Assembly: GCA_034687125.1 (NCBI GenBank)
Contig: JAQGBZ010000293.1
Location: 16,790-80,789, forward strand
Source: Neelides folsomi
Taxonomy: Eukaryota; Arthropoda; Collembola; Neelipleona; Neelidae
Reading direction: 5' to 3'
Length of the DNA: 64,000 nucleotides
The notes under the pieces are model-generated. The model was given only the letters and a program-made list of their open reading frames with translations. It was not told the origin of the DNA and did not search any database. Position numbers and translations under genes: made by a program. Shown here one piece after another: positions 18,104-58,000 of this stretch. Position 1 is the stretch's first letter; the number at the start of each line of letters is the position of its first letter.

Positions 18104-21100
18104 CTATTCGTTATTCTCATTATCATTTACATTATTAAATACGTATTTGTTTAAAATATCTAAAATCCAAACATTAAATGAGTCAACATGAGTAAAGACG
18201 TTGTAACTTTCATCACTGCAATATTCCCCTTTTGGTTTTTTTCCAAAGCTCACGATCCCCTAAAAGTTGAATTGAATTAGTATTTTAAATTTAATTATTC
18301 TAACTTAATATTCAAAGTTTAAAGATACAATATACTTCATTTCCGTGAATTTGTAAATTTAATTAAAAAGTATAAAATACGAACCTTAAGGACGTATTTT
18401 CTATGGGAGGCTCTGACTGTTTCGGTAAAGACAAATCCTCCTCCTGAATCTCCTTGGCATGTTGAGATTGAACCTAAAATTTCATATTCAAATTATACAT
18501 TATATCAAATAACATTAAATATTTTGAATAATTAAAATTAAAAGCCTTAAAGTTATTTTCAAGTAAGCAAGTGTAATTGACCCACCATTATGAAAACCTC
18601 CACAAAACATTGCTTGTGAAAGTTTAACATTTAGATTTTTCTCACAGGCCGCCGGTGCAGCGGTGGGAATTTGAGCAAAGGAAAGATATTGGGATACTTT
18701 ATCAAATTTGGTAGCTCCGAATCCCGGAACTTTTCCCAATTTCCCAACAGGTGGTTTTTGTGATAAATTGGACATTAAATAGCAAACTGGGCGAATGAAG
18801 GATGTGTAATTAACAGGTTGATCAAGCTGAATTAGACTAATGTCTGATCTCACTAATTGAGAAGAACTTTGGAATGTTCTTGGTTTCCAAATCCCTTTAA
18901 CGCTAAAGATTTGGGCATGGAGATCTTCAACATTATCTTCGTAATTAGGATTCAACGGTGCTAAAACAATTTGCAAGGAATCGAATTGAACATAATTGTT
19001 GAACTCGTCCGTGACACAATGAGCGGCGGATAAAATCACGTTTTTCTCAATTAAAGATCCACCACAGATATATCGGAAACCCCCATTGGCATCTTTTTGA
19101 AATATGGCGGCATGCCATGGAAAACTGTTTTTGTTATTTACAGGTCGACCATTTGCAATAAAAGGAGCAATTTCTTCTCTATTTATAATACCGCAATCTG
19201 AAATGTCCAAAAAATAATTACTTTAAAATTATGAAGTTTAATATATAAATATGTAAATACAATAAAAAGTTTAATTAATCAGTTTAAAGATAAAATGCCA
19301 TTTTTGTCATATAAACTTTGAAACTAATCAAAATAAATATCATTGGAATAAAAAATAAATTGTAATTTTGTCAAAAAGTTATACTGTTTTTTAATAAAAT
19401 TGTTAATTATTTACTGGATTGTTTACGAGAGAATAAATTAAATGGCTCGCGTCAATCCAACAAATTATCCACCACCACTACCATACGATGAAATAGCCTT
19501 TAATAATCCAAATGTATGCTAACAAATTATTAATAAACCAAGTTTAATAATATTGTTTTTTGAATACTACTATTTAATAAATGGCATATTCTTTTAATCA
19601 CTACATTAAAACATTCCTTACTCTTTTGTGTGAATTACAATAAATATTATAATGATTTGATAATTATTTTTAAGATTAATTCAACACTTCCTGTCGCATC
19701 TCAACATTTTGAGTCCAGCGGAGAAATTTCTCCTCAAGATGTAAACCCAAATGAATCCACATTGGCTCCAAGCTTACAAGAGAACATTCCAGTGGTAGAG
19801 CCAAGTTTAGTGAGAAATCAACGCCCTGTCGAAAATACCGCCGTTGAAATCATTTCTCTTGCTCGATTTCGTGCTGGTTGGGATAGTTATTGGGATAGAC
19901 CCGGATACAACAATTATGGGTTTAGAAATAATGATGGCTTTGCAATGTGTTGCGGATCAGCTGGAATGTGCTGTTTTTCGTACATCGTCGCTATTTGTTG
20001 TTGCTACTGTGCAATAATAGCCCTCGCTTTAGTGGGAAGTTTAATGGGATTTGGACCTGATATGGGAGAAACGACAACGACAACAACAAATTCAGTATGG
20101 TAAAACCAACTACAGATTCAACTCTGTCATGATTATACTAAATATAATTAAAAGTATTATTTTGAAAAGTAAAGTCAGGATTGTCATATTGAATAAAACA
20201 TAATTAAAAGTTATTGATGCTTGTTTATTTAAAATATAATTTATCGTTAGGTTAATCATACATACCTAGGCTTGTTATATAATGTAGGTTGTAATAGTAG
20301 GCTTTTTATCATATTGATCAATTTTTCATTGATAGATTTTTGGATATTTTTTAAACTCAAAAATTTTTCTTACCAGCTTTGCATACAAATGCTTTAAAAG
20401 GAGTCCATTGACCATCAGGTCCGCAAGTCATTCTCCAATATTTGTAGCGTTGTTTTGAAACAAAGAATTCTGCACAAGAGCGAGTCAAAATGGTTCCTTC
20501 CTCAGCAACTTCACCACATGGAATTGGCTTTTGATTTCGATCATGACAACTCAATTTTACACCCTAAATAAAAATTAAGATTAAAAAGATTAATCAAAAT
20601 CTTTCCAAAAGACAATAACGTTTAGGGCAAAAGGGCACTTTCTTACCCACCATCTATAAATGCCATTGATAACATGATAACCCAATGGTCAATCGGGTCA
20701 GAAATACTAATGTTAGGTGGCGCAAAAGATTGTTCTATAATGCCCCAATTTAACTAAAGCCTCGCCTCGCTCACCTCATAATGTGGAATTGCTAAGCAAG
20801 AATTCCTCTCGCTTTTCTTGATCGTTGTTGAAGGAAGTTGGAATTTGGCCACGTGTTCTTGGATCTTTCTTGTTTTGAGACAAAGAGCGAATTCCTCATC
20901 AGTTCCACTTGGACAATCTTCCTTCCCATCACACAATTTTTCTTTCCGAATGCATTTCCCATGCAGATGACATTGATGACCAGAGGAACAATTGGATCCA
21001 AGACTTGCTTTACAATAACTTTCATCTTCATCAGATTTGTCATTGCAGTCATCCTTGAAATCAAAATTATTTAAATATTTATATACTACTTAAACGAAAC

Positions 21101-22753
21101 AAATCTTTTTATTTGAATGATAAATTTTTAATTTTATAAAATTTTATAAAAATAATTTTGGCTTTATATTTAATGTTTATAAAATATAAATACTTTTCCA
21201 TTGCACACGCTTATAAAAGGGATACAAGTTCCATCTGCACAAGCATACATTTCTTTTTCACTGCAACTATATATAAAGAATATTTATTTTAAGAATATTT
21301 ATTAAATTGTATAAGATTGTTCCATAAAATGGTTAACTTATAATATAATTAATAATAAATATTAAATTCATATTAAATATTCATACTAGACATTCTTCGA
21401 AATCCAAATTGAAATAAATTGAACATTCCCAAAGAAATATATTGTATTCGTATTGCATTTCCCCTTTGTCCTTTTGGGAATTAAAGCCAAAATTCCAACC
21501 ACAGTCTGAGAATTCTTTGCCATTAAAGAACTTCCATGCAAAAGACATCTCTCATTTCGGTTCCTTAAAGCCCTAAGATCAATCCCGTGGTCATTTCCTC
21601 CTTCAAAATGAATATTCGTCCTTTTCGAATCTCCTCTCCCGCATATCAAATTCGTATTTGATTCCTTATAGTAAAACTTGAACGCTTCGGAACACTCTTC
21701 CACGTTCTCGGTTTTAATGCTACTCTTGTAAAGTGGAAAACCGCCCTTTTCCGCCGTAGCTGGAGAGGAAAATCCTCCAAAGAAACCATCACTTTCAATT
21801 ACCCGCAGGTCATCTTCACCAGATTTCGCAAAATCTTTATATTCTCTTTCCTCATTATTTCCTCTCCTTGGTTCTTCAGAACCGGGAAGACAAGCACTTC
21901 GAGCAAATGGACTTGACAAATCCAATTTCCTCTTAAGGTGAAGAAGAACATAATGATATTTATTGTATGATCCGTCATAGATGGTTTCATTCAATAATGG
22001 ATTTCTCAAAGTGGCGGATGTTTTGAGAGAGAAATAAGGAAGGACATGAGAAACATAAGAGATCTGAGTGTTTTGATCGCCATCACGAAGATTTGTTGAT
22101 TTTAGCCCAACGGCCACAAGGTAATTTTCCCCATCTTCAATCCTGTAGTTGGGAGTGGGAAAAGGGCCGCCGAATAAAGTAAGGATCGTATTTTCTCCCA
22201 AAATGATCCCACTTGTAAGGAACTTGAACGGAGAACTCCTTGAAGGCCGTGTGTATAATCCCGCCGTCCATGGCACTTGAGTTCGGATATCGTTTGAGAG
22301 AAGCCCGGGGATTTGGCCGCAACCTGGATTTTAAAAATTCGATATGTTCTTAAAATAATTGAAAAATGATTTTTTTCTAATATAGACTTTTTCTAGTGTA
22401 TTTATTTTCCATTTTCCAACTGAGCTCTACAGTACTCTCTATAGAATTTATTTACATTTTATTATTTTTTTTATATATTTAGTTTATTTTTTTATTTATT
22501 TACAGTTTATTATTTATTTTTTATTATTCCTTTGTTTGATTTATCTATTGAATTTTTTATATTTTAACTCACGAGAGGAAATTTCATGAGACGACACGAA
22601 CTCCGAAGCACCAATGACAATATTTGGGAATGTGAGGAAGAATAAAAGGCAGCAATTGGTAAATAAAATTGAACAATTGAGTAAACTGAAACACTTTGTT
22701 AAGATCAAATTATTTGGGAAAATAAAATTATTGGTGGATTTGAAGGTAAACAT
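18104..22753 (-). CDS. Modular serine protease: signal - inactive protease domain - LDLa - LDLa - sushi - trypsin domain
   Basis: Eight exons close in frame to 838 aa: 22573-22753, 21387-22323, 21194-21266, 20775-21053, 20374-20563, 18586-19197, 18385-18473, 18104-18259. A hydrophobic signal segment lies near residues 29-49. Residues 61-372 form a trypsin-like fold without a catalytic triad (ILTLFGG at the His position, GNDHGIDL at the Ser position). LDLa repeats follow at about 373-411 and 417-454 (CNGKDDCNDKSDEDE, CDGKEDCPSGTDEE), then a sushi/CCP domain (about 483-553). An active chymotrypsin-fold domain ends the protein (IANG at 567, SAAHC, DISLI, GDSGG). LDLa-sushi-protease is the arrangement of insect ModSP/HP14, initiators of Toll and melanization cascades. 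The in-frame TAG at 21386-21388 is split by the proposed intron; retention would give a secreted inactive homologue alone. Confidence 0.82.
19442..20103 (+). CDS. Small cysteine-rich membrane protein nested in the protease intron
   Basis: Two exons, 19442-19513 and 19675-20103, join in phase 0 to 166 aa. The gene lies on the opposite strand within the 1.2-kb protease intron between the sushi exon (20374) and the trypsin exon (19197). The N-terminus is proline-rich and contains YPPPLPYDE, a possible SH3- or WW-type ligand. A polar middle follows. Then comes a cysteine-packed hydrophobic segment (MCCGSAGMCCFSYIVAICCC, continuing through YCAIIALALVG) that looks like a palmitoylated transmembrane helix. 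The tail is threonine-rich. An AATAAA lies near 20190, downstream of the stop. I do not recognise a family. The donor AAT|GTATGC and acceptor TTTTTAAG are good. Confidence 0.7.
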
Positions 22754-23767
22754 TGTTGAGAATGAGTGTAGTGGGAAACAAGTTTAAAGGAGGAAGTATT
22801 GATAATTCATTTTCCTCTTATACCAATTATAAGGAGTTTCATAGAGTAGAGAAGAAACAACTTGTGGAGAATCATGCTGAAAACCAAGATGAAAATGAGC
22901 AAAGAACAAAATACAACTCCGTAGATAAAGACATTAACCATTACCTATGGACATTGAATCTTTCAATTGATCTTGATAGAAAAAAGTTGGAATAAAAGTT
23001 GAACGTGAATTCCAATGCTGGAGGGGATAATCTCATTTGAATAATACAAGTGGTTTAGCACAATTTGATACTATAGGATTTGTTAGGTAGGTCATTTGTA
23101 TATGTTAGGCAGATCAACTTAAACTACTTGATCAACTTGATACAATAAATTGATGATTTATTTCTAAGAACAAAATCGTAATTTTTAATATCAAGAGTGA
23201 AACGGGATTGTTCATTCATTAACTTATGTCTTATTTATATTCAAGACTCGTAAACTCATAAACAGCCATAAAGGATAAGCTAAACGTTTAAAAATGATTT
23301 ATTCAATACATGAATGAAGTAACGCATAATAATTTTGTTTTTAAAAGTTTTTGATCAAAATATTTATGTGTAAAATTATAATTATGTTAATTTTGTTCAA
23401 TAGAATGTAAAGATGTAAAATATATTAATTAATGATCTGATTAACTAAATAACAATTAAAGGCATTCCAATTTTCATTTTCTTAAAATTTCATTTTCGCA
23501 TTAAAGTGCATTGGTTATATTAGGTTAAAAAGAAGAAGGAATTTGAATTTACTGGCGCGTTGAAAGATTAAATTGTCTAAAATTGATAGAATTGCGGTTT
23601 GCGATTTGCGAATTGCGAATATCTACGACTTAAAGTCCAAGTCACTAAACTCGAATTACAAGTTAAAGGTAAATTAGTTAAAGATTTTGAGTTAATCTTG
23701 ACCTACTTTAAAGATTGTAAATAATTCCGAAGACGTCAAGCTGAATCAATTAAGACCAAAGGCGAAA
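22754..23767. other. Spacer between divergent protease and Nae1 genes
   Basis: About 1 kb between two divergently transcribed genes. An open frame on the plus strand (ATG at 22762, ending 22995) lies directly against the protease start. I could not support it as a gene, since no homology or splice context is visible. The rest is AT-rich. Confidence 0.45.
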
Positions 23768-26241
23768 ATGTCAACAGCCTCAGCTTCAGCTTCACCTTCG
23801 CCCAAGTCGCCGGAAGTGTCAGAAAAGAGTAAAAGATATGATCGACAGCTCCGGTAAGTTAATTACAAACACAATCAATTCAATCCCCCCAAAACCTTGT
23901 GCAATTTAGGCATACTATCAATGTTAATTTACTTTTCTTTTAATAATCATTAATCATTAAATTGTTGTAGGTTATGGGGAGATCACGGGCAAACTATGCT
24001 AGAAAACAGCAATATTTGCCTCATTAACGCGAATGCTACCGGGACGGAAATAATGAAGTCTCTTGTGCTTCCTGGAATTGGAAACTTTACTATTGTGGAT
24101 GGAAATAAAGTGACCGAAGAGGACATTGGAAATAAGTAATTGATTAACTAATTGATTTATTTATCACAATTTAATTAAAACATTATTTTTTTACAATTTC
24201 TCCATCATTTTGATAAAAACAATTCTTGTATATTAACCACATAAATTAACTTAAAATTTTAGTTTCTTCTTGGAAGCCGATTCATTAGGAAGGAGTCGCA
24301 GCGAATGTGCAACTCGACTTCTCAATGAAATGAACCCAGATGTGAGTGGGACGAGCATTGAGGAAAATCCTTCAACTCTTCTGGCACACAATCCTTCTTT
24401 CTTTACTAACTTCTCTGTTGTTATTGCATCTCAATTAAACGAAAAGTAAGATTAAGATTAGCCCATTCCTTTTAATAATTTTAAGATATTTTATTAATGA
24501 TTTTATAACTTTAACACAGATAATTGGTAGTTATATTAAAATTTAATTTAAATTTTTTTATGATTTAAGGACTTTGTCTCAGCTGAGCGGAATTTTATGG
24601 GAAGCTAAAGTTCCCTTCATTTACTGTCAAGTGGTTGGGCTTTTGGGTTGGGTTCGAGTTCAGCTGGTTGAACATCTAATTATCGAATCTCATCCTGACA
24701 ATATTACCGATGACCTGAGATTGGAAAATCCGTTTGATGAACTGAGGGAGGCCATGAACAGTATTGAATTGAATGGACGTGACGAATCTGTTAGCACCCC
24801 TTGGTTGGTTGTGATGTACAAAGGACTTGAGAAATATGTGGCTGAACATCATTTGTCCCATCCTTCACACAATCCTGCCAAGAAACAGGAATTTAAAACT
24901 TTTCTTAGAAAGTGTAAGAAATTTATAAGCCCTTTTGAAAACAATTGTTGTTGAGTAAATTTTTTTAGCCATAATTCAAAGGTTTTTGCATTATTTTAAC
25001 ATTAAATAATTAATTTAGACCTTGAAGACCTTGGACTCCATGACGGAGACGATACATTTGAAGAAGCCATAAAAGCAACAAATAGAGCATTTCCTTTGGC
25101 CGCAAACGCAATTCCTTCATCGATTCGAGCTATTCTTGATGACCCCGCAATTAAAAAACCAGAGGTGAAATAATTTTCATTTGATCTAGCTACTTAATAA
25201 TTATAATTTAATAATTGAATGTTTTTGTAGAATAAATTCTGGCTCATGTGTGCTGGGTTGAAAGAATTTATTGAAGAAACTGGGAATTTCCCATTGAGCG
25301 GACGTTTACCTGACATGACAGCCAACTCTACCAAATTCATTTCACTTCAAAACGTGTACAGAGACAGGGCAAACAAAGATGCTGAGGATGTTTTTAATCG
25401 TTGTCAGTTGATGATTGAGAAAGAAGCAAGACTCGCCAAAATCTCTCTTACTCCAAATAATGTAAAGTTGTTCTGCAAGGAAGCCAAGAATCTGATGCTT
25501 ATTCGGGGCGAAGAACTTGCAAAAGAACTCAATTCCGCTCCTTCGGCTATTCTTCCACAATTGGGTCTCATTTTAATGAATTAATTAATACCTGGATTTC
25601 TCTCAATTAGAATTTATATTACTGGGAGTTATAATCTTATATTGGTATTGTCAGTTATGCTAATTTAATTTGATATTTTAGCACAAAATACAGAAGAATG
25701 TGAGCAGAATGAAATTGCTTATGTGATGATGAGGGCAATTCTCCGGTTTGAAACTGAATACAACACTTACCCTGGAATGAATGATCAACATGTTGAATCG
25801 GACATTGCTCTGTTTAAGGTATTTGGATTAGTTTCATTGGTTCAATTTTCAGAAGAATTGTTCAAATTCATTATTATTCTCATTTTTCGCTTTTAGGGAT
25901 CTGTCAATAAATTATTGAACGAATGGAACTCTAATTTGGCCGTTGATGAAGTTTTTATTCATGTGATTTGCCGATATGGAGCTGCTGAAGTTCACTCGGT
26001 TGCAGCTTTCATTGGTAAAACCACTGTTCAATTTTAAAACAACTTTTCCCGTTTTTTTCAATTTGTTAAATTAATAAAGTAAATGAAAACTAAATATTTA
26101 ATATAATGAACAGGAGGATGCGTCGCCCAAGAAGTGATTAAGATCGTGACGGCCCAATACGTTCCATTATCAGACACTCTCATCTACAATGCGATCAACT
26201 CGACAACAACCGAAATGAAAGCAATCGTCCCTGCTCAATGA
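23768..26241 (+). CDS. Nae1: NEDD8-activating enzyme E1 regulatory subunit (APP-BP1)
   Basis: Nine exons close in frame to 546 aa: 23768-23853, 23971-24135, 24263-24445, 24570-24913, 25019-25164, 25231-25564, 25682-25818, 25897-26014, 26114-26241. The protein has the ThiF/E1 adenylation fold: [16 protein letters not shown] at the start, then [20 protein letters not shown] and [10 protein letters not shown]. The C-terminus has [20 protein letters not shown] followed by QEVIKI, the family end block. NAE1 pairs with UBA3 to activate NEDD8 for cullin neddylation; this subunit lacks a catalytic cysteine by design. Length matches the family (about 530-540). A polyadenylation signal AATAAA lies near 26475. 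The gene converges on PYROXD2, whose stop is 426 bases downstream. Confidence 0.96.
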
Positions 26242-26666: not shown

Positions 26667-29037
26667 TTATCCTTTTGAAGACATGAGAGCTTTGGCTGAA
26701 AAGTATCCTGGAAGTCCCATGACACCTCCACCAGGATGACATCCGCTCCCACAAAGGTACAATTTTTTCATTGGTGTTTCCGGGAACCAACACTTGTCAG
26801 TTAGAATCGGACGGAGCCAGAATAATTGATCGAAACTCATTGACCCGTGGAAGATATTCTGTAAATGACAAAATTACAGCTCAAAAATAATATCCCGATA
26901 ACTTATTTTTTAATGAACAAATGTAATAATTCCATTTATTAGTAATTTAATTAAACAAATTACTCCTCCAGTAAGCCCAAAAGTTTCTTCCAAATGATAA
27001 GGAGACAAAACTTCTTTTCCCACAATACTCGCTTTAAACCCAGGAGCGTAAGCTTCAATGGCGTCAAAAACTGTTTGAGCATATTTCTCCGTATAACTCT
27101 CGTCCTTCCAAGACCCATCCGAAGGAGAAAAGGGCGTGTATTGTGTGAAAAGTAAACAGACGTGCGCTCCCTTTGGAGCTAGTGTTGGGTCAAGACTGGA
27201 TGGAATGACCATTTCAATCATTGGCTTCCTCGAAGGGACATTTTCCTTTGAACAGACTGAAAAAGAATCTTCAAGATCCGCCATGGACTCACAGTTCAAA
27301 TGGATGGTGCATTTGTGAGGATTTCCAACTTGGCCTGAATTGGAAGGATCAGCAGAGAAATTTGGGAGTTTGTCAACCGCCACTGGAAATATTAATTTTA
27401 ACTTAAATTAATCAATGTTGATATTAAACATTTCATCAGATAAGTAAATAATTAAGTTTATTCAATAATTATTAATTAAAATAATATTATTTAATTCCAA
27501 AATCAAATCACCATTTATTTTAGTCACAGGAGATGTGTAATCAATGGAATTGACCGCTTTAACAAAATCAGTTCCAAATACAGCTGTGGGATCTTTAAAC
27601 AAGTTTTTGAACGTTACGTGGGGCGTCGCTCCTGAAAACACGGCCTTTGTAGCTTCGATCATTTTCCCGTCTTTTGTTACGACTCCTGAAGCTTCCAAGC
27701 CTGACTTCCCATCTTTGTATTCAATGCTTTGAATTTCCTAAAATCATTTCTTATTAATTAAAATAAAACCAACCCAGTAATATATTTCTTACATAATATA
27801 CAAATAATTATAACATACAATTTAAAGTATTTTTATTTGTGAAATATTTCTTTTTTAATATTTGAACTTTTAATTTATTTTACTTGATTAGTAAAAATGT
27901 GAACTCCAAGACTTGCTGCACTTGAAGCAATTGCCTGACTCACTCCGCCCATTCCTCCTTCTGGATAAGCCCAAGCTCCCGCTTTCCCATTCACGCCACC
28001 CATGATATGATGAAGAAGAACATAGCCAGTGTCAGGAGTATTCGGTCCAGACATTGTCCCAATAAGAGCATCAGTGGCCAATGTTGCTTTCAAAGGCTCG
28101 GAAGTAAACCATTTGTTTAGGACTTTGGCTGCAGAAGCTGTCAACGTTTCATGAAATTGTGGGAGATTTGACCCAAGGGACAAAAGTGCTCTGGCACTTG
28201 AACCCGCAGCTCGCATTCTCTCCATCGAGTAAAATCCTTCTTTCTTGGTGAGGTTAGGCGGGCGATTGTCCAACAGCTTGTTGATCGTTTCAACAAATTT
28301 ACCCATTTCCTTCTCATATTCATGATAGTTCCGAGCGTCTTCTTTAGAGAACTTTCCAATCTCGGCAGAGGTCAAATCGGCTGAACTGGAGAGAAGGAGT
28401 GATTTGGCTGGAAAGGATTCCCAGAGAGATTCTCGAATTGGAGTATACGAACTGTATGGCTCACGCATGTAGAATTTAAGCCCGTGCTCCTTTTAAAAAC
28501 ATTAAGATCAACAAAAGTAATTAAAACTCAATTATCATTTTGGCATATTGGTACTTAAGATTTTATTAATTGTGAGAATGAAACTGTAAGGTAAGGTCTT
28601 TACTTTTAATTTGAGATCCTCAATGATAAACGGACGGAGTAAACTGAGGACGTAGGAAGCGCGAGAGAATTTGAATCCCGGAACGATTTCTTCAGTCACC
28701 GCCGCCCCGCCAACAACTCCCCGCTTCTCGACTACACAAACGGAGTAACCCGCCTTGGCCAGATAGGCCGAAGAGACAAGGCCATTGTGACCTGATTAAT
28801 CAAACGAAAAATTATATCATTTTACAAATGTAATTCTGCATTAATGAAACAATTAATTAAGCTATTTAAGATGAAATTGAGAAAACCTCCGCCCACAATT
28901 ACAACATCATAAGATGATTTCAAATCCTCAATATTCTTAACAATTGAACTTAAATGTCTTGTATGATAAAAATTTGGTTTATTTCTTGTCAAAAGATTCA
29001 CTGAATTTACTGAAAGTTTACAAAATGAACTCCTCAT
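26667..29037 (-). CDS. PYROXD2: PYROXD2-like mitochondrial FAD-dependent oxidoreductase
   Basis: Six exons close in frame to 593 aa: 28887-29037, 28604-28791, 27884-28489, 27512-27737, 26964-27382, 26667-26858. A basic, serine-rich N-terminus suggests a mitochondrial presequence. The dinucleotide-binding motif follows ([12 protein letters not shown]), then [15 protein letters not shown] and [20 protein letters not shown]. Further blocks are [18 protein letters not shown] and, at the C-terminus, [20 protein letters not shown], the end motif of phytoene-desaturase-like oxidoreductases. PYROXD2 sits on the mitochondrial inner membrane and affects complex IV and mitochondrial integrity; its substrate is not established. 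Length agrees with human (581 aa). The gene is divergent from ZNG1, with about 870 bases between the starts. Confidence 0.95.
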
Positions 29038-41166: not shown

Positions 41167-42405
41167 CTGAAATTGAAAATGTTATTAGTTTTTTAATCTA
41201 ATTTAAAATGATAATTAAATAGGTAATAAACTTCCTAGTTAGAGTCATAATATGAGAAATACAAATTTAGGGAAATTTTCTTGTTACATCATTAAAAATA
41301 ATTGTCCAATTTGAGTGTTAATTAGGGAGATTCAAAATTATCGCAATATAAGATTTTACGATAATACCCTAAAATTACGTGTTAAATTAAGTCTGGCTAT
41401 TATAATTAACCACCATTTTAATTAATGTGAATGTGAATAACAATAAATGATAAAATCTTGTAATTTATTAAATTAAAATTAATAATTTAAAAAAATAATT
41501 CTATTCAATTTATGATAATTATCATCCAATTATATCCTAATTTAAAATAATTTTTAATTAATAATGCTAAATATCTAATAAGAAATTGTATATTTGATTT
41601 AAGCAAGTGTTAATTATCATTTTGTCATTAATGGAATCAAAGATTAATTCTCATCTAAATATTGAAGATATGAAAACTAAAGTCTTAAGCAGTTAAAGTA
41701 ATAAGGCCGAGGATTGTGAACTTTTGACCCTTATCTTTCACATTATTTACACTATACAAAACGCCACGATATATCGAGATATGCAATATCCCCGGGCATA
41801 TGGAATAAGGAAAGAAAAAAACTAAGTTAATTAGTTATATGCACGGTTATGGCACGAGCATGCTTCCGTTCAATTTGAACCAACTATAAACAATTAAATC
41901 CAATATAGTCTCATTTACTTTCACTAGCCAATAGACCACACTCTATACATTTTGACCCGTATGTGTTGATATATAATACCCGGGTCTGATTATTTAGTCC
42001 TTATAAAACTATTGCTCAACATGGATTGCGATATTCGCAATGGTGCATGAGAGTCATAAATTGCTTTCACTTTCATCTCCCAACTTCCACTAAATAATAA
42101 AACGGAATTCCACACAATCAATTCCCTCCAATTCCAAACGACTCCACATAATAAAATGAGTAAAAATAGGAGTAAAATATTTAAATTCCCAATTAGCAAC
42201 CAATTAATTTTTTATAGTTAAATTAAAATGATAATAAATCTCAGTATTTATTTTTCCTAACTGTATTTATTAAATTAAAACCAAATAAACTCTTAATGTA
42301 TTAACCAATAGTTAATTATATCTTACAAAATTACAATATTTAAATATTTAAACAGACAATTAAATATTTAAATTGGAGAACCAGAATGAAAAGAAGTGAT
42401 TTTAC
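41167..42405 (-). other. 5'-UTR intron of the membrane-anchored stefin gene
   Basis: The acceptor TTTCAG at 41167-41172 joins an untranslated stretch 41145-41166. The proposed donor AAG|GTAAAATC lies at 42405. The 1.2-kb interval is AT-rich with no gene of its own; the open frame 41990-42199 has no recognisable content. Confidence 0.5.
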
Positions 42406-55068: not shown

Positions 55069-58000
55069 TTAGTTTAATTCGTTTTCATCATCGGAATCTA
55101 CCGATATATTGCTTGCATTGCTGTCATTACTTCTTCCCTCACTGCTTGAATTATTCTCGTTCAAATTTCCTTGTGTGGTTGAAACTATAGGAGCAGTGAA
55201 AGTAGATGAAGAATTTAAGTACGTTTCTCCAACTCGCTTGTCGGGTATTGGGGAATAAATAGGGTGGCCCGTGACTCTGATATTTGCATGAATATCCAAT
55301 GGGGCCTCCTCTTTAACTGTATGATTAATGGACTCCGAGAGTAAAGTATTTTCAGTCACATCTTCATCATTGTTCACATTCGTGTCATTGGCGAGACTAA
55401 CATGAACAGTGGTCATTTCTTCTCTATCACTTTCAGTTGTTCTCGCATTGGAACGGTCCGAAAATGAAAATGGGCGTATTTTGGTTTCTACGCTCTCTTC
55501 TGACTGATGGGATCCTGATGAATTGGGTGAAGAATCCGATGTATCGCTTCCAGATTCTAAGCTTAAACTTTGTGTGGTGAAGATAGGGGGATGTAATTCT
55601 TCCCCGTCGTCTAAAACCACCGTTTCATCGTTAGAGTCTGCCGATGGTCTATTCACACCATAAGACGAAACAATCACTTTGTCTCCGATTGTTTCATGTT
55701 CGGGGGATTTGAAGGGTATTTTTGATGAGAACGGGAGAATATATTGAGTCGTAGATGAAGTTGGAACAAGAGTAGATATATTCAAATTTTCTGAAATGTC
55801 ATCATCTTGAGTAAAATTTTTTCCTTCTTCTGGAGCTGTTTGAGAGTTATTCATTAATTCGATTTCAACAGGAATATATTTGACGGTTTCTTCTTCAGTA
55901 ATCGGCAGAGGAGTAACAACATTGCTTGTTGGCACAATTGTCTTTGGTGATGGAGATGAATAACTACTAGGCAAAATGAAATCAGAACTAGTCGTAGACA
56001 TATTTATCGGAGAAGGGCCGTAAGTTGAATATTCATTGCTTAATGATTCAGCATTTGAAAATGTTTTTGATGTTCTTTCAATTGGGTTTGTAATATTATT
56101 TTCATTATTTTCATGTCCGTGAAAGATTTCTGAAGTTTCTGTATGAAGAATGGCCATTGGAGTAGTAGTCATGGAATAAATAGGAATTTCATCAACTGGT
56201 TCAGTAGAAGTCCTATTGTTTTCTAATTCAATTTCGGGATTTGACATTTGTTCTGTCGTAATCATCTGACTTTGATCGTCTTTATTTTCATTCTGTAAAT
56301 TGTTGGTTTGGGAATCTGATAGAGTCTCATTACGGATTTCCAAAGGCAAATCAGTTTCGTTGAAGGGTAAAAGATGATGATCCGTGTGGTCTTCTAAGGT
56401 TGAGTTTGTTTCTCTTTCAAAATTATCAGTGCTTAATGTTGAGGATGAGACCAAAATATTTACTGGAGCGAGAGATATGGGTTCTTGCGATAGAGTTGTT
56501 TCGTCATCTTGGAATTGTGTGCTATATCCTGGTGTTGTCCATTCATCACTAAAAGCATCTGTGGTGTTATTCGTTGCTTCGTTACATATTTTTTCATCAT
56601 TTGTAGAAATAATCATATTTTCTGGACAAGTGCAGTGAATGTCAAGTATTTTGTGATCAAAGGAACAAAAATGGGAACAGCCTCCATTTTCTAAATTGCA
56701 CATATTCACCACGGCTAGAATTAATAAATCATTTTAAATTAGTAAAACACTAATAATAATGTTCATAATAAATAATATTACAAAAATGGAAAACAATGAA
56801 ACAATTAGGCATATTACAACTCAACATTAAAATGTTTGTTTTTAGTTTTAATTTTGCTAGATTTATTTTTAAGGTCAGGATAGTTTTTTAAATGAGATTA
56901 GAGAGCCCATAGTTATGGACATCCTATTAAAGCTTCACTCACCATAAATTGAAATGATTCCTTGTAGAACGCTGTATCTTCCAATGTTTTCTAAAATTTG
57001 CAGAAACTGTGTAACATTGGATGAATTTATCTCATTGTCTATCCACCCAATTCGCATTACCACTCTGCTTCCTTCGATTTCTGGCCTGTTATTGGTTAGA
57101 AATTGATTAATCTTTACATTTTGTAAATAGAATAATTTCATAAATATTTTTAAATTTATTATTGTACTACATATACTATACTGTACTATAGTATAGCATA
57201 AATATTTAATTAAAAATTTTAATATATGAGAAAGTATTTCAACGGTTTCTCACTATTATATTAACTTACATAATTTTCTTGATTTTAGAAGTGACTGTCT
57301 TGAGATGGAGTTCTTGTGATAAAGTCTTTCGCATCTAAAGTTTTAAAAAAGAATTCTTTACTAAAGTGATAGGTTGCTAATTTACACAGTTAAAATTAGG
57401 GAAAAAATTAAACCAACCTCTGTATTGAGTTCAAGGGAAATTTCATTGAATCTTTGTGTTGTCCTATCACTGAAATCAGTCTCATAATCTAGATGTTCGA
57501 GCGTAACTTCAAGATCGATTGCAGAGGGAACTGATTAAAATAAAAAAATGAATTATACAAGTTTAACTCGGTATCATTCTCTTCTAAATCTATTACCATA
57601 AATGTCTGGAGTTTTTGGAGTGTTTAATAAGGCTGTAAATCCAGGAGTGCTTTCATGGAATACTTCTGTCAAGTTGCTTTCTAATAATAATTAAACATTG
57701 TTATCAGATTATAGTTCATCAGATTGTAGTTCATTCTAATAAATTTTATTTGGAATGATGAATGAATAAAGTTTGAAATATAGCAGTTCATTCATATAGA
57801 AATTCCAATTATAAAATCTACATATACCATAAAAATTAGAAGTTGATTTTGAATTTGAGTATGATGGTGTAGTCGAAAGTGGTAAAATCCCTTGATCCTT
57901 AGTAGATATGGGATGGATGGTTTGCGTAAGACTTGAGGGCGTAGAAGTTACCATAGTTGTGGTCGGGTCTAATTTAGTGATCATATTCTTCGTACCGAAC

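Follow-up and report, generated by a model that had tools for sequence, protein, structure and literature searches.

A collembolan gene predicted to join a protease-like domain without catalytic triad to a ModSP/HP14-like protease

The window analysed here is a stretch of 64,000 nucleotides from the collembolan Neelides folsomi (assembly GCA_034687125.1, contig JAQGBZ010000293.1, positions 16,790 to 80,789 of the forward strand; positions below count from its first letter). In the mitochondrial contig of the assembly (15,157 bases) ARAGORN places tRNA-Leu(taa) between COX1 and COX2, and the gene order corresponds to the ancestral pancrustacean one; this points to a hexapod or crustacean and led us to reject a mite origin. 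On the minus strand of the window, between 22753 and 18104, eight exons with GT..AG joints (22753-22573, 22323-21387, 21266-21194, 21053-20775, 20563-20374, 19197-18586, 18473-18385 and 18259-18104) give a reading frame of 2,517 nucleotides, or 838 amino acids and a stop. Rebuilding the model confirmed the statement of an earlier note on this DNA that these exons join without phase conflict. The encoded protein presents, in order, a signal peptide, an S1A-like domain that lacks the catalytic triad, two LDLa repeats, a six-cysteine sushi/Wonton-like module and a protease with an intact triad; unglycosylated, it would weigh an estimated 90 kDa or so. Exon 1 (22573..22753) carries the start codon and the hydrophobic signal-peptide segment and ends in phase 1 at C|GTGAGT. 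Upstream on the same strand, at 22941-22824, there is a further signal-like open reading frame (ORF) that has a phase-1 donor; it is a possible alternative first exon, so the 5' end of the gene is not certain. Exon 2 (21387..22323) holds the whole pseudo-protease (residues 62-372), its S1A fold being assigned by profile. Its 312 codons lie inside an ORF of 314 codons, which is beyond chance, since 50 Markov-1 sequences of 64 kb contained no ORF longer than 176 codons. The intron that follows (21267..21386, phase 2) is the junction between the two halves of the protein; it measures 120 bases, a correction to the 118 given before.

The rear half begins with LDLa repeat 1 (21012..21265, interrupted by the intron 21193-21054) and LDLa repeat 2 (20880..20990), both recognized by Pfam. 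The six-cysteine module (20381..20798, with an intron inside) is assigned from its cysteine pattern. The C-terminal protease starts at residue 554 and extends over four exons (18104..20374). Pfam matches Trypsin in this rear domain at 7.2e-38 and the two LDLa repeats at 3.5e-12 when the full window protein is searched. Sequence and alignment place the catalytic codons at 19019..19021 for His57 (AAHC), 18842..18844 for Asp102 (SDISL) and 18445..18447 for Ser195 (GDSGGG). The predicted activation site is APF|IANG (19157..19162), where cleavage would leave Phe at P1 and Ile as the new N-terminus. Residues 189-190 are Ser-Thr, as in a chymotrypsin-like pocket. The module ahead of the protease had been read as a sushi domain. 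Pfam Sushi has no match in the window protein, and among the five full-length proteins of the family that were scanned (C216 was left out) solely that of C582 passes its cut-off. All six copies of the module have six cysteines, which fits Wonton, described as a sushi-like module with six cysteines in place of four (PMC10036332). Of the proposed series of two LDLa repeats, sushi and protease, the repeats and the active protease stand, and the sushi is better described as a sushi/Wonton-like module.

Recognition of the front domain as a protease relative depends on profiles. Alone, it has no Pfam family match at E<=10, and against PDB it yields a single match, 1a5i at 0.16. A profile built from six front domains of the same genome (see below) aligns to the rear protease with hhalign over 245 columns (99.0%, E 6.9e-18) and matches coagulation factor Xa in PDB at 4.7e-10. 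Three of the six front domains match Pfam Trypsin at E<=10, the best at 1.1e-5. With residue numbers assigned from alignments, none of the six retains a catalytic position: around His57, L[ST]xxG[GN] takes the place of AAHC, Asp102 is substituted, and GDSGG is replaced by CLLHGS-like motifs in five and by CTQVGT in C582. Cysteines aligned to positions 1, 122, 168, 182, 191 and 220 are invariant in all six, and Cys 42 and 58 are lost. Thus the 42-58 disulfide is absent throughout; so is the activation site, because, compared with the intact rear domains, some ten residues are missing between Cys1 and the PW motif. Each of the six combines the S1A fold (by profile, not by structure) with loss of the triad residues, as in a serine protease homologue (SPH), and this bears out the earlier claim of an inactive protease-like domain ahead of the rear protease. 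As judged from its residues, the front domain is a stable pseudo-enzyme and not a recently broken enzyme.

The gene has close relatives in the same genome. A search of 75.1 Mb in 840 contigs, in which locus counts are lower bounds, finds the front domain at no fewer than six loci: the window, C115, C216, C346, C438 and C582. At all six, LDLa and protease matches follow the front domain in a common order and strand, and spliced alignment gives the full order. A hydrophobic start lies 174-1198 bases ahead of the pseudo-protease exon at every locus, with a phase-1 donor listed at five (a raw count with no chance control). The rear triad is intact in the window, C438 and C582. It is broken in the other three, by H57N and S195V in C115, by D102N and S195V in C216, and by H57T, D102E and S195L in C346. 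A hydrophobic P1 residue before I/L-xxG occurs only in the three triad-intact rear domains (F|IANG, Y|LTGG and F|IVKG). C115, C216 and C346 (L029, L030 and L031) have lost the rear activation site too and are double pseudo-proteases.

The paralogues also explain how the two halves are connected. An intron of phase 2 lies at the border between front domain and LDLa in the window and in four of the five paralogues (C115, C216, C438 and C582). C346 has none: there, one open frame (41505-42125, border at 41898) covers ~123 residues at the end of the pseudo-protease and continues without a stop through LDLa 1 and the greater part of LDLa 2, and the genome search recovers this border region as a single stop-free match at 8.3e-50. 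Because the junction intron is shared and C346 crosses the border in a single frame, the joined layout is a property of the family, and the argument from the short gap, on which the single-gene reading had leaned, is no longer needed. That reading itself is supported by the common order in five paralogues and the open frame of C346.

For the six rear domains we built a tree that also included five control trypsins and seven further proteases from this genome. The six group as a single clade (100/100) apart from these 12, and the association of the two halves has therefore survived the duplications of the gene. The nearest relatives are C136, C351 and C166 (82/92), and the three dead rear domains cluster with moderate support (87/81). 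Once added, the front domains likewise group together (100/100), with their attachment point lying among the rear domains, and the two sets jointly separate from the 12 other proteases at 94/100. This position would fit a duplication within the gene; both sets are long-branched and the forks stay open. We infer a single origin of the two-protease layout, through either fusion or an internal duplication of the protease domain, followed by copying. Outside the family, C136, C236, C39, C379 and C122 have LDLa matches or cores with no front-domain match at E<=10, and C351 and C166 have neither LDLa nor a front-domain match at that threshold. In a scan with the front domain, scores are 53-87 at seven neighbouring protease loci, whereas the eight control loci range from 33 to 50 (C280 scores 73). 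We tentatively read these scores as the shared protease fold, because no match appears there in the protein search at E<=10. C280:72000-80500 (L044) contains two mutually similar LDLa-like stretches. A transmembrane-like segment comes after one of them, and neither a complete protease nor a complete family member was recognized at C280. A tblastn search found no relative in viral_contigs (64 pattern matches) or genome_contigs (11), both poor sources for arthropod genes.

Comparison with known systems provides the frame for interpreting the rear half. ModSP/HP14 proteases are described, in the passages cited here and below, as receiving signals from recognition receptors and as having the order LDLa-Sushi-Wonton-serine protease (SP) with hydrophobic activation sites (PMC1761132, PMC10036332, PMC11172050). 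The type's activation site is given as L|IVNG with S1 residues S-S-G (PMC11172050) or as SKTL IVNG with SSS (PMC1761132). Drosophila ModSP prefers Leu at P1, and in the presence of recognition proteins and elicitors it activates itself, weakly in the recombinant assay used (PMC10732536). Like ModSP, Manduca HP14 and Tenebrio MSP as so described, the window protein has LDLa repeats, a six-cysteine Wonton-like module, a C-terminal S1A domain, a hydrophobic activation site and a residue other than Asp in S1. It differs in its extra front pseudo-protease, in having two LDLa repeats behind that domain where the described members have 4-5 or more directly behind the signal peptide, in showing no separate canonical sushi, and in having Phe at P1 where they have Leu. 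The triad-intact C-terminal S1A domain, the hydrophobic P1 and the chymotrypsin/elastase-like pocket are ModSP/HP14 traits that can be read from the sequence alone, and they uphold the proposal that the rear half resembles these proteases. This likeness to insect ModSP rests on domain features, as our phylogeny covered proteases of the same genome and control trypsins. With Phe at P1 and Ser189, the features of the rear half would allow ModSP/HP14-like behaviour.

Active and inactive protease domains tethered in one chain are already known, so the novelty that the earlier note saw in an inactive domain ahead of an initiator protease is narrower than it supposed; the order of the domains and the ModSP-like partner do differ from the described cases. 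Nudel joins active and inactive protease domains and LDLa in one polypeptide (PMC11172050). Its order is LDLa-SP-LDLa-SPH-LDLa, it is trypsin-type and, in the cited beetle protein, membrane-anchored, and the description examined mentions no Wonton; here the dead domain comes first and the active one last. Beetle Sushi-SP-Sushi-SPH polypeptidases and the Anopheles SP(H)-SPH-clipE-SPH protein likewise have tandem SP and SPH domains in secreted proteins, and most of the beetle polypeptidases fall in the Tm-MSP clade and have L|I activation sites (PMC11172050). As described, the beetle proteins with an active domain place it first and the SPH second, and both domains come with a Sushi and an activation site of their own, whereas the dead domain of the window protein is first and lacks an activation site. 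Human polyserases 1-3 also carry tandem S1A domains in one chain, some of them inactive; no LDLa-Wonton-SP half appears in the description cited, and we presume an independent origin (PMC1435904). With two S1A domains in one chain, on genomic evidence, the window protein belongs among polypeptidases and polyserases in the broad sense (at least two such domains per chain). In the literature searched, which left most subscription papers and protein databases outside its scope, we found no dead protease domain without activation site placed first, ahead of an LDLa-Wonton protease. This absence is no proof of absence.

Our preferred reading, in which we have moderate confidence, is that one gene encodes a secreted zymogen with an inactive front half and a ModSP-like rear half, that it belongs to a family of six or more genes whose layout arose once, and that the protein works by docking and autoactivation. 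The front half would dock the zymogen on a recognition complex or on partner proteins. The pseudo-protease would most likely add a binding or regulatory surface, by analogy with the SPH domains of polyserases, for which such a surface has been proposed (PMC11172050). Once such zymogens cluster, the rear domain would be able to cut its own chain or an adjacent one after Phe (APF|IANG), since its pocket would fit a hydrophobic P1, and the active protease may stay held to the front half through a Cys1-Cys122 disulfide. One branch of three members has lost rear catalysis too, and these double-dead proteins may be adaptors or decoys. A more tentative version, to which we give about half that credence at best, makes the front pseudo-protease a built-in recognition or control subunit that replaces separate SPH cofactors or extra LDLa repeats and positions or restrains the zymogen, with the double-dead paralogues as dominant-negative or scaffold forms.

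The earlier note's proposal, a role at the start of an innate-immune cascade, we treat as a possibility. Pfam matches in the genome include CLIP (7), Spaetzle (10 pieces), Amidase_2 (3) and Hemocyanin_C (2 pieces on one contig). Amidase_2 is the PGRP fold, and Hemocyanin_C may mark a hemocyanin, hexamerin or phenoloxidase. Because these matches are present, a Toll- or melanisation-type cascade is possible in this genome; nothing ties the fused gene to it. The protein may instead serve development or the patterning of egg or cuticle, as Nudel does, for Nudel is a cascade initiator that joins LDLa with an active and an inactive protease (PMC11172050, PMC10036332). The C438 rear domain is matched at 7e-12 by DUF1986, a profile that may be linked to Nudel. 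The domain order differs, however, Nudel in its published description has R|VVGG and a trypsin-type pocket where we see Phe at P1 and Ser189, and the Wonton-like module points to ModSP/HP14. We consider a Nudel-like role unlikely.

Several observations weigh against the single secreted zymogen. The window gene model is built from genomic sequence and homology, and the paralogue models from spliced alignment to the window protein; that of C216 is poor near Ser195. AlphaFold, run on a single front-domain sequence, reached a predicted local distance difference test (pLDDT) score of 34.4, and the model was not used. The tree that includes the front domains does not resolve the six rear ones as a clade distinct from them. 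A search for CBM39, the beta-glucan receptor domain, gave no match, an uninformative outcome. The splice sites at the junction are weak. To score them we derived a matrix from the paralogues, using 35 of 60 introns and omitting poorly aligned ones, and applied it to the junction sites of the window and to one upstream donor. The junction donor, at 4.36 bits, is under all but two of the 35 family donors (2.7-10.1), and the acceptor, at 3.67 bits, is level with the weakest (3.7-12.4). The 120-base intron contains a stop and AATAAA motifs, and its retention leads to TAG at once. The stronger upstream donor, at 21802 (7.41 bits), is in phase 0 and was rejected as unable to join the phase-2 LDLa exon; skipping of exon 2, from exon 1 to the LDLa exon, is ruled out by the incompatible phases 1 and 2.

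These same weaknesses bear on three other explanations. The stop and the AATAAA motifs in the junction intron make a short pseudo-protease product conceivable, and one gene may yield both the fused protein and a pseudo-protease-only form through retention of the intron or polyadenylation within it, as the weak splice sites and the immediate stop would suggest. Yet many phase-2 donors (GTAA, GTAG) would produce a stop at once, AATAAA is by rough estimate common by chance in such AT-rich DNA, and C346 has no intron at the border; we regard two products as improbable, at the level of the Nudel-like role. We think it less probable still that the window copy is a decaying member of the family from which the fused protein is no longer made efficiently. 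The weak junction sites and the loss of the rear triad in three of six members would fit decay, but the exons remain open and in phase over 2,517 nucleotides and the triad and activation site are intact. Last, two adjacent genes, with exons 1-2 encoding a secreted stand-alone pseudo-protease and a ModSP-like protease starting near 21266, would account for the stop right at the junction, the AATAAA motifs in the gap and the weak splice sites, but this reading appears nearly excluded and very improbable: the LDLa exon starts mid-codon directly after AG and so needs an upstream exon, exon 1 cannot supply it in frame because it ends in phase 1, both halves are kept together in five paralogues and within one open frame in one of them, and the six rear domains form one clade against 12 other proteases.

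Other features were noted in the window. Inside the 1.2-kb intron between the Wonton-like module and the protease, on the plus strand, a start exon at 19442 is accompanied by an ORF that reaches 20103 (179 codons between stops, counted from 19564). Together they may represent a nested gene that encodes a small membrane protein; the C-terminal part is Cys-rich and hydrophobic, and there is no Pfam match at 0.01. The corresponding intron measures merely 81-130 bases in the five paralogues. A divergent neighbour gene at about 23750-26000 (plus strand) would share the upstream region with the fused gene. By eye it resembles the NEDD8-activating enzyme regulatory subunit (NAE1/APP-BP1); the two ORFs tested there have no Pfam match. 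One ORF among the exons at 26910-28492 (minus strand) matches Amino_oxidase weakly (0.0084, below the cut-off), and these exons resemble PYROXD2 by eye. At 55069-56733 (minus strand) a 554-codon ORF is Ser/Thr-rich and mucin-like, with an EGF-like start (FXa_inhibition at 2.9e-5, below the cut-off).

Insect immune proteases are described as being regulated by clip-domain SPHs, which are separate proteins (PMC5672044). The gene presented here is predicted to join a pseudo-protease in cis to an initiator-type protease and has kept the two together through at least five duplications. It extends the ModSP-like layout beyond signal peptide, LDLa, sushi and protease, and would allow a clean test of the role of a pseudo-protease in a cascade.

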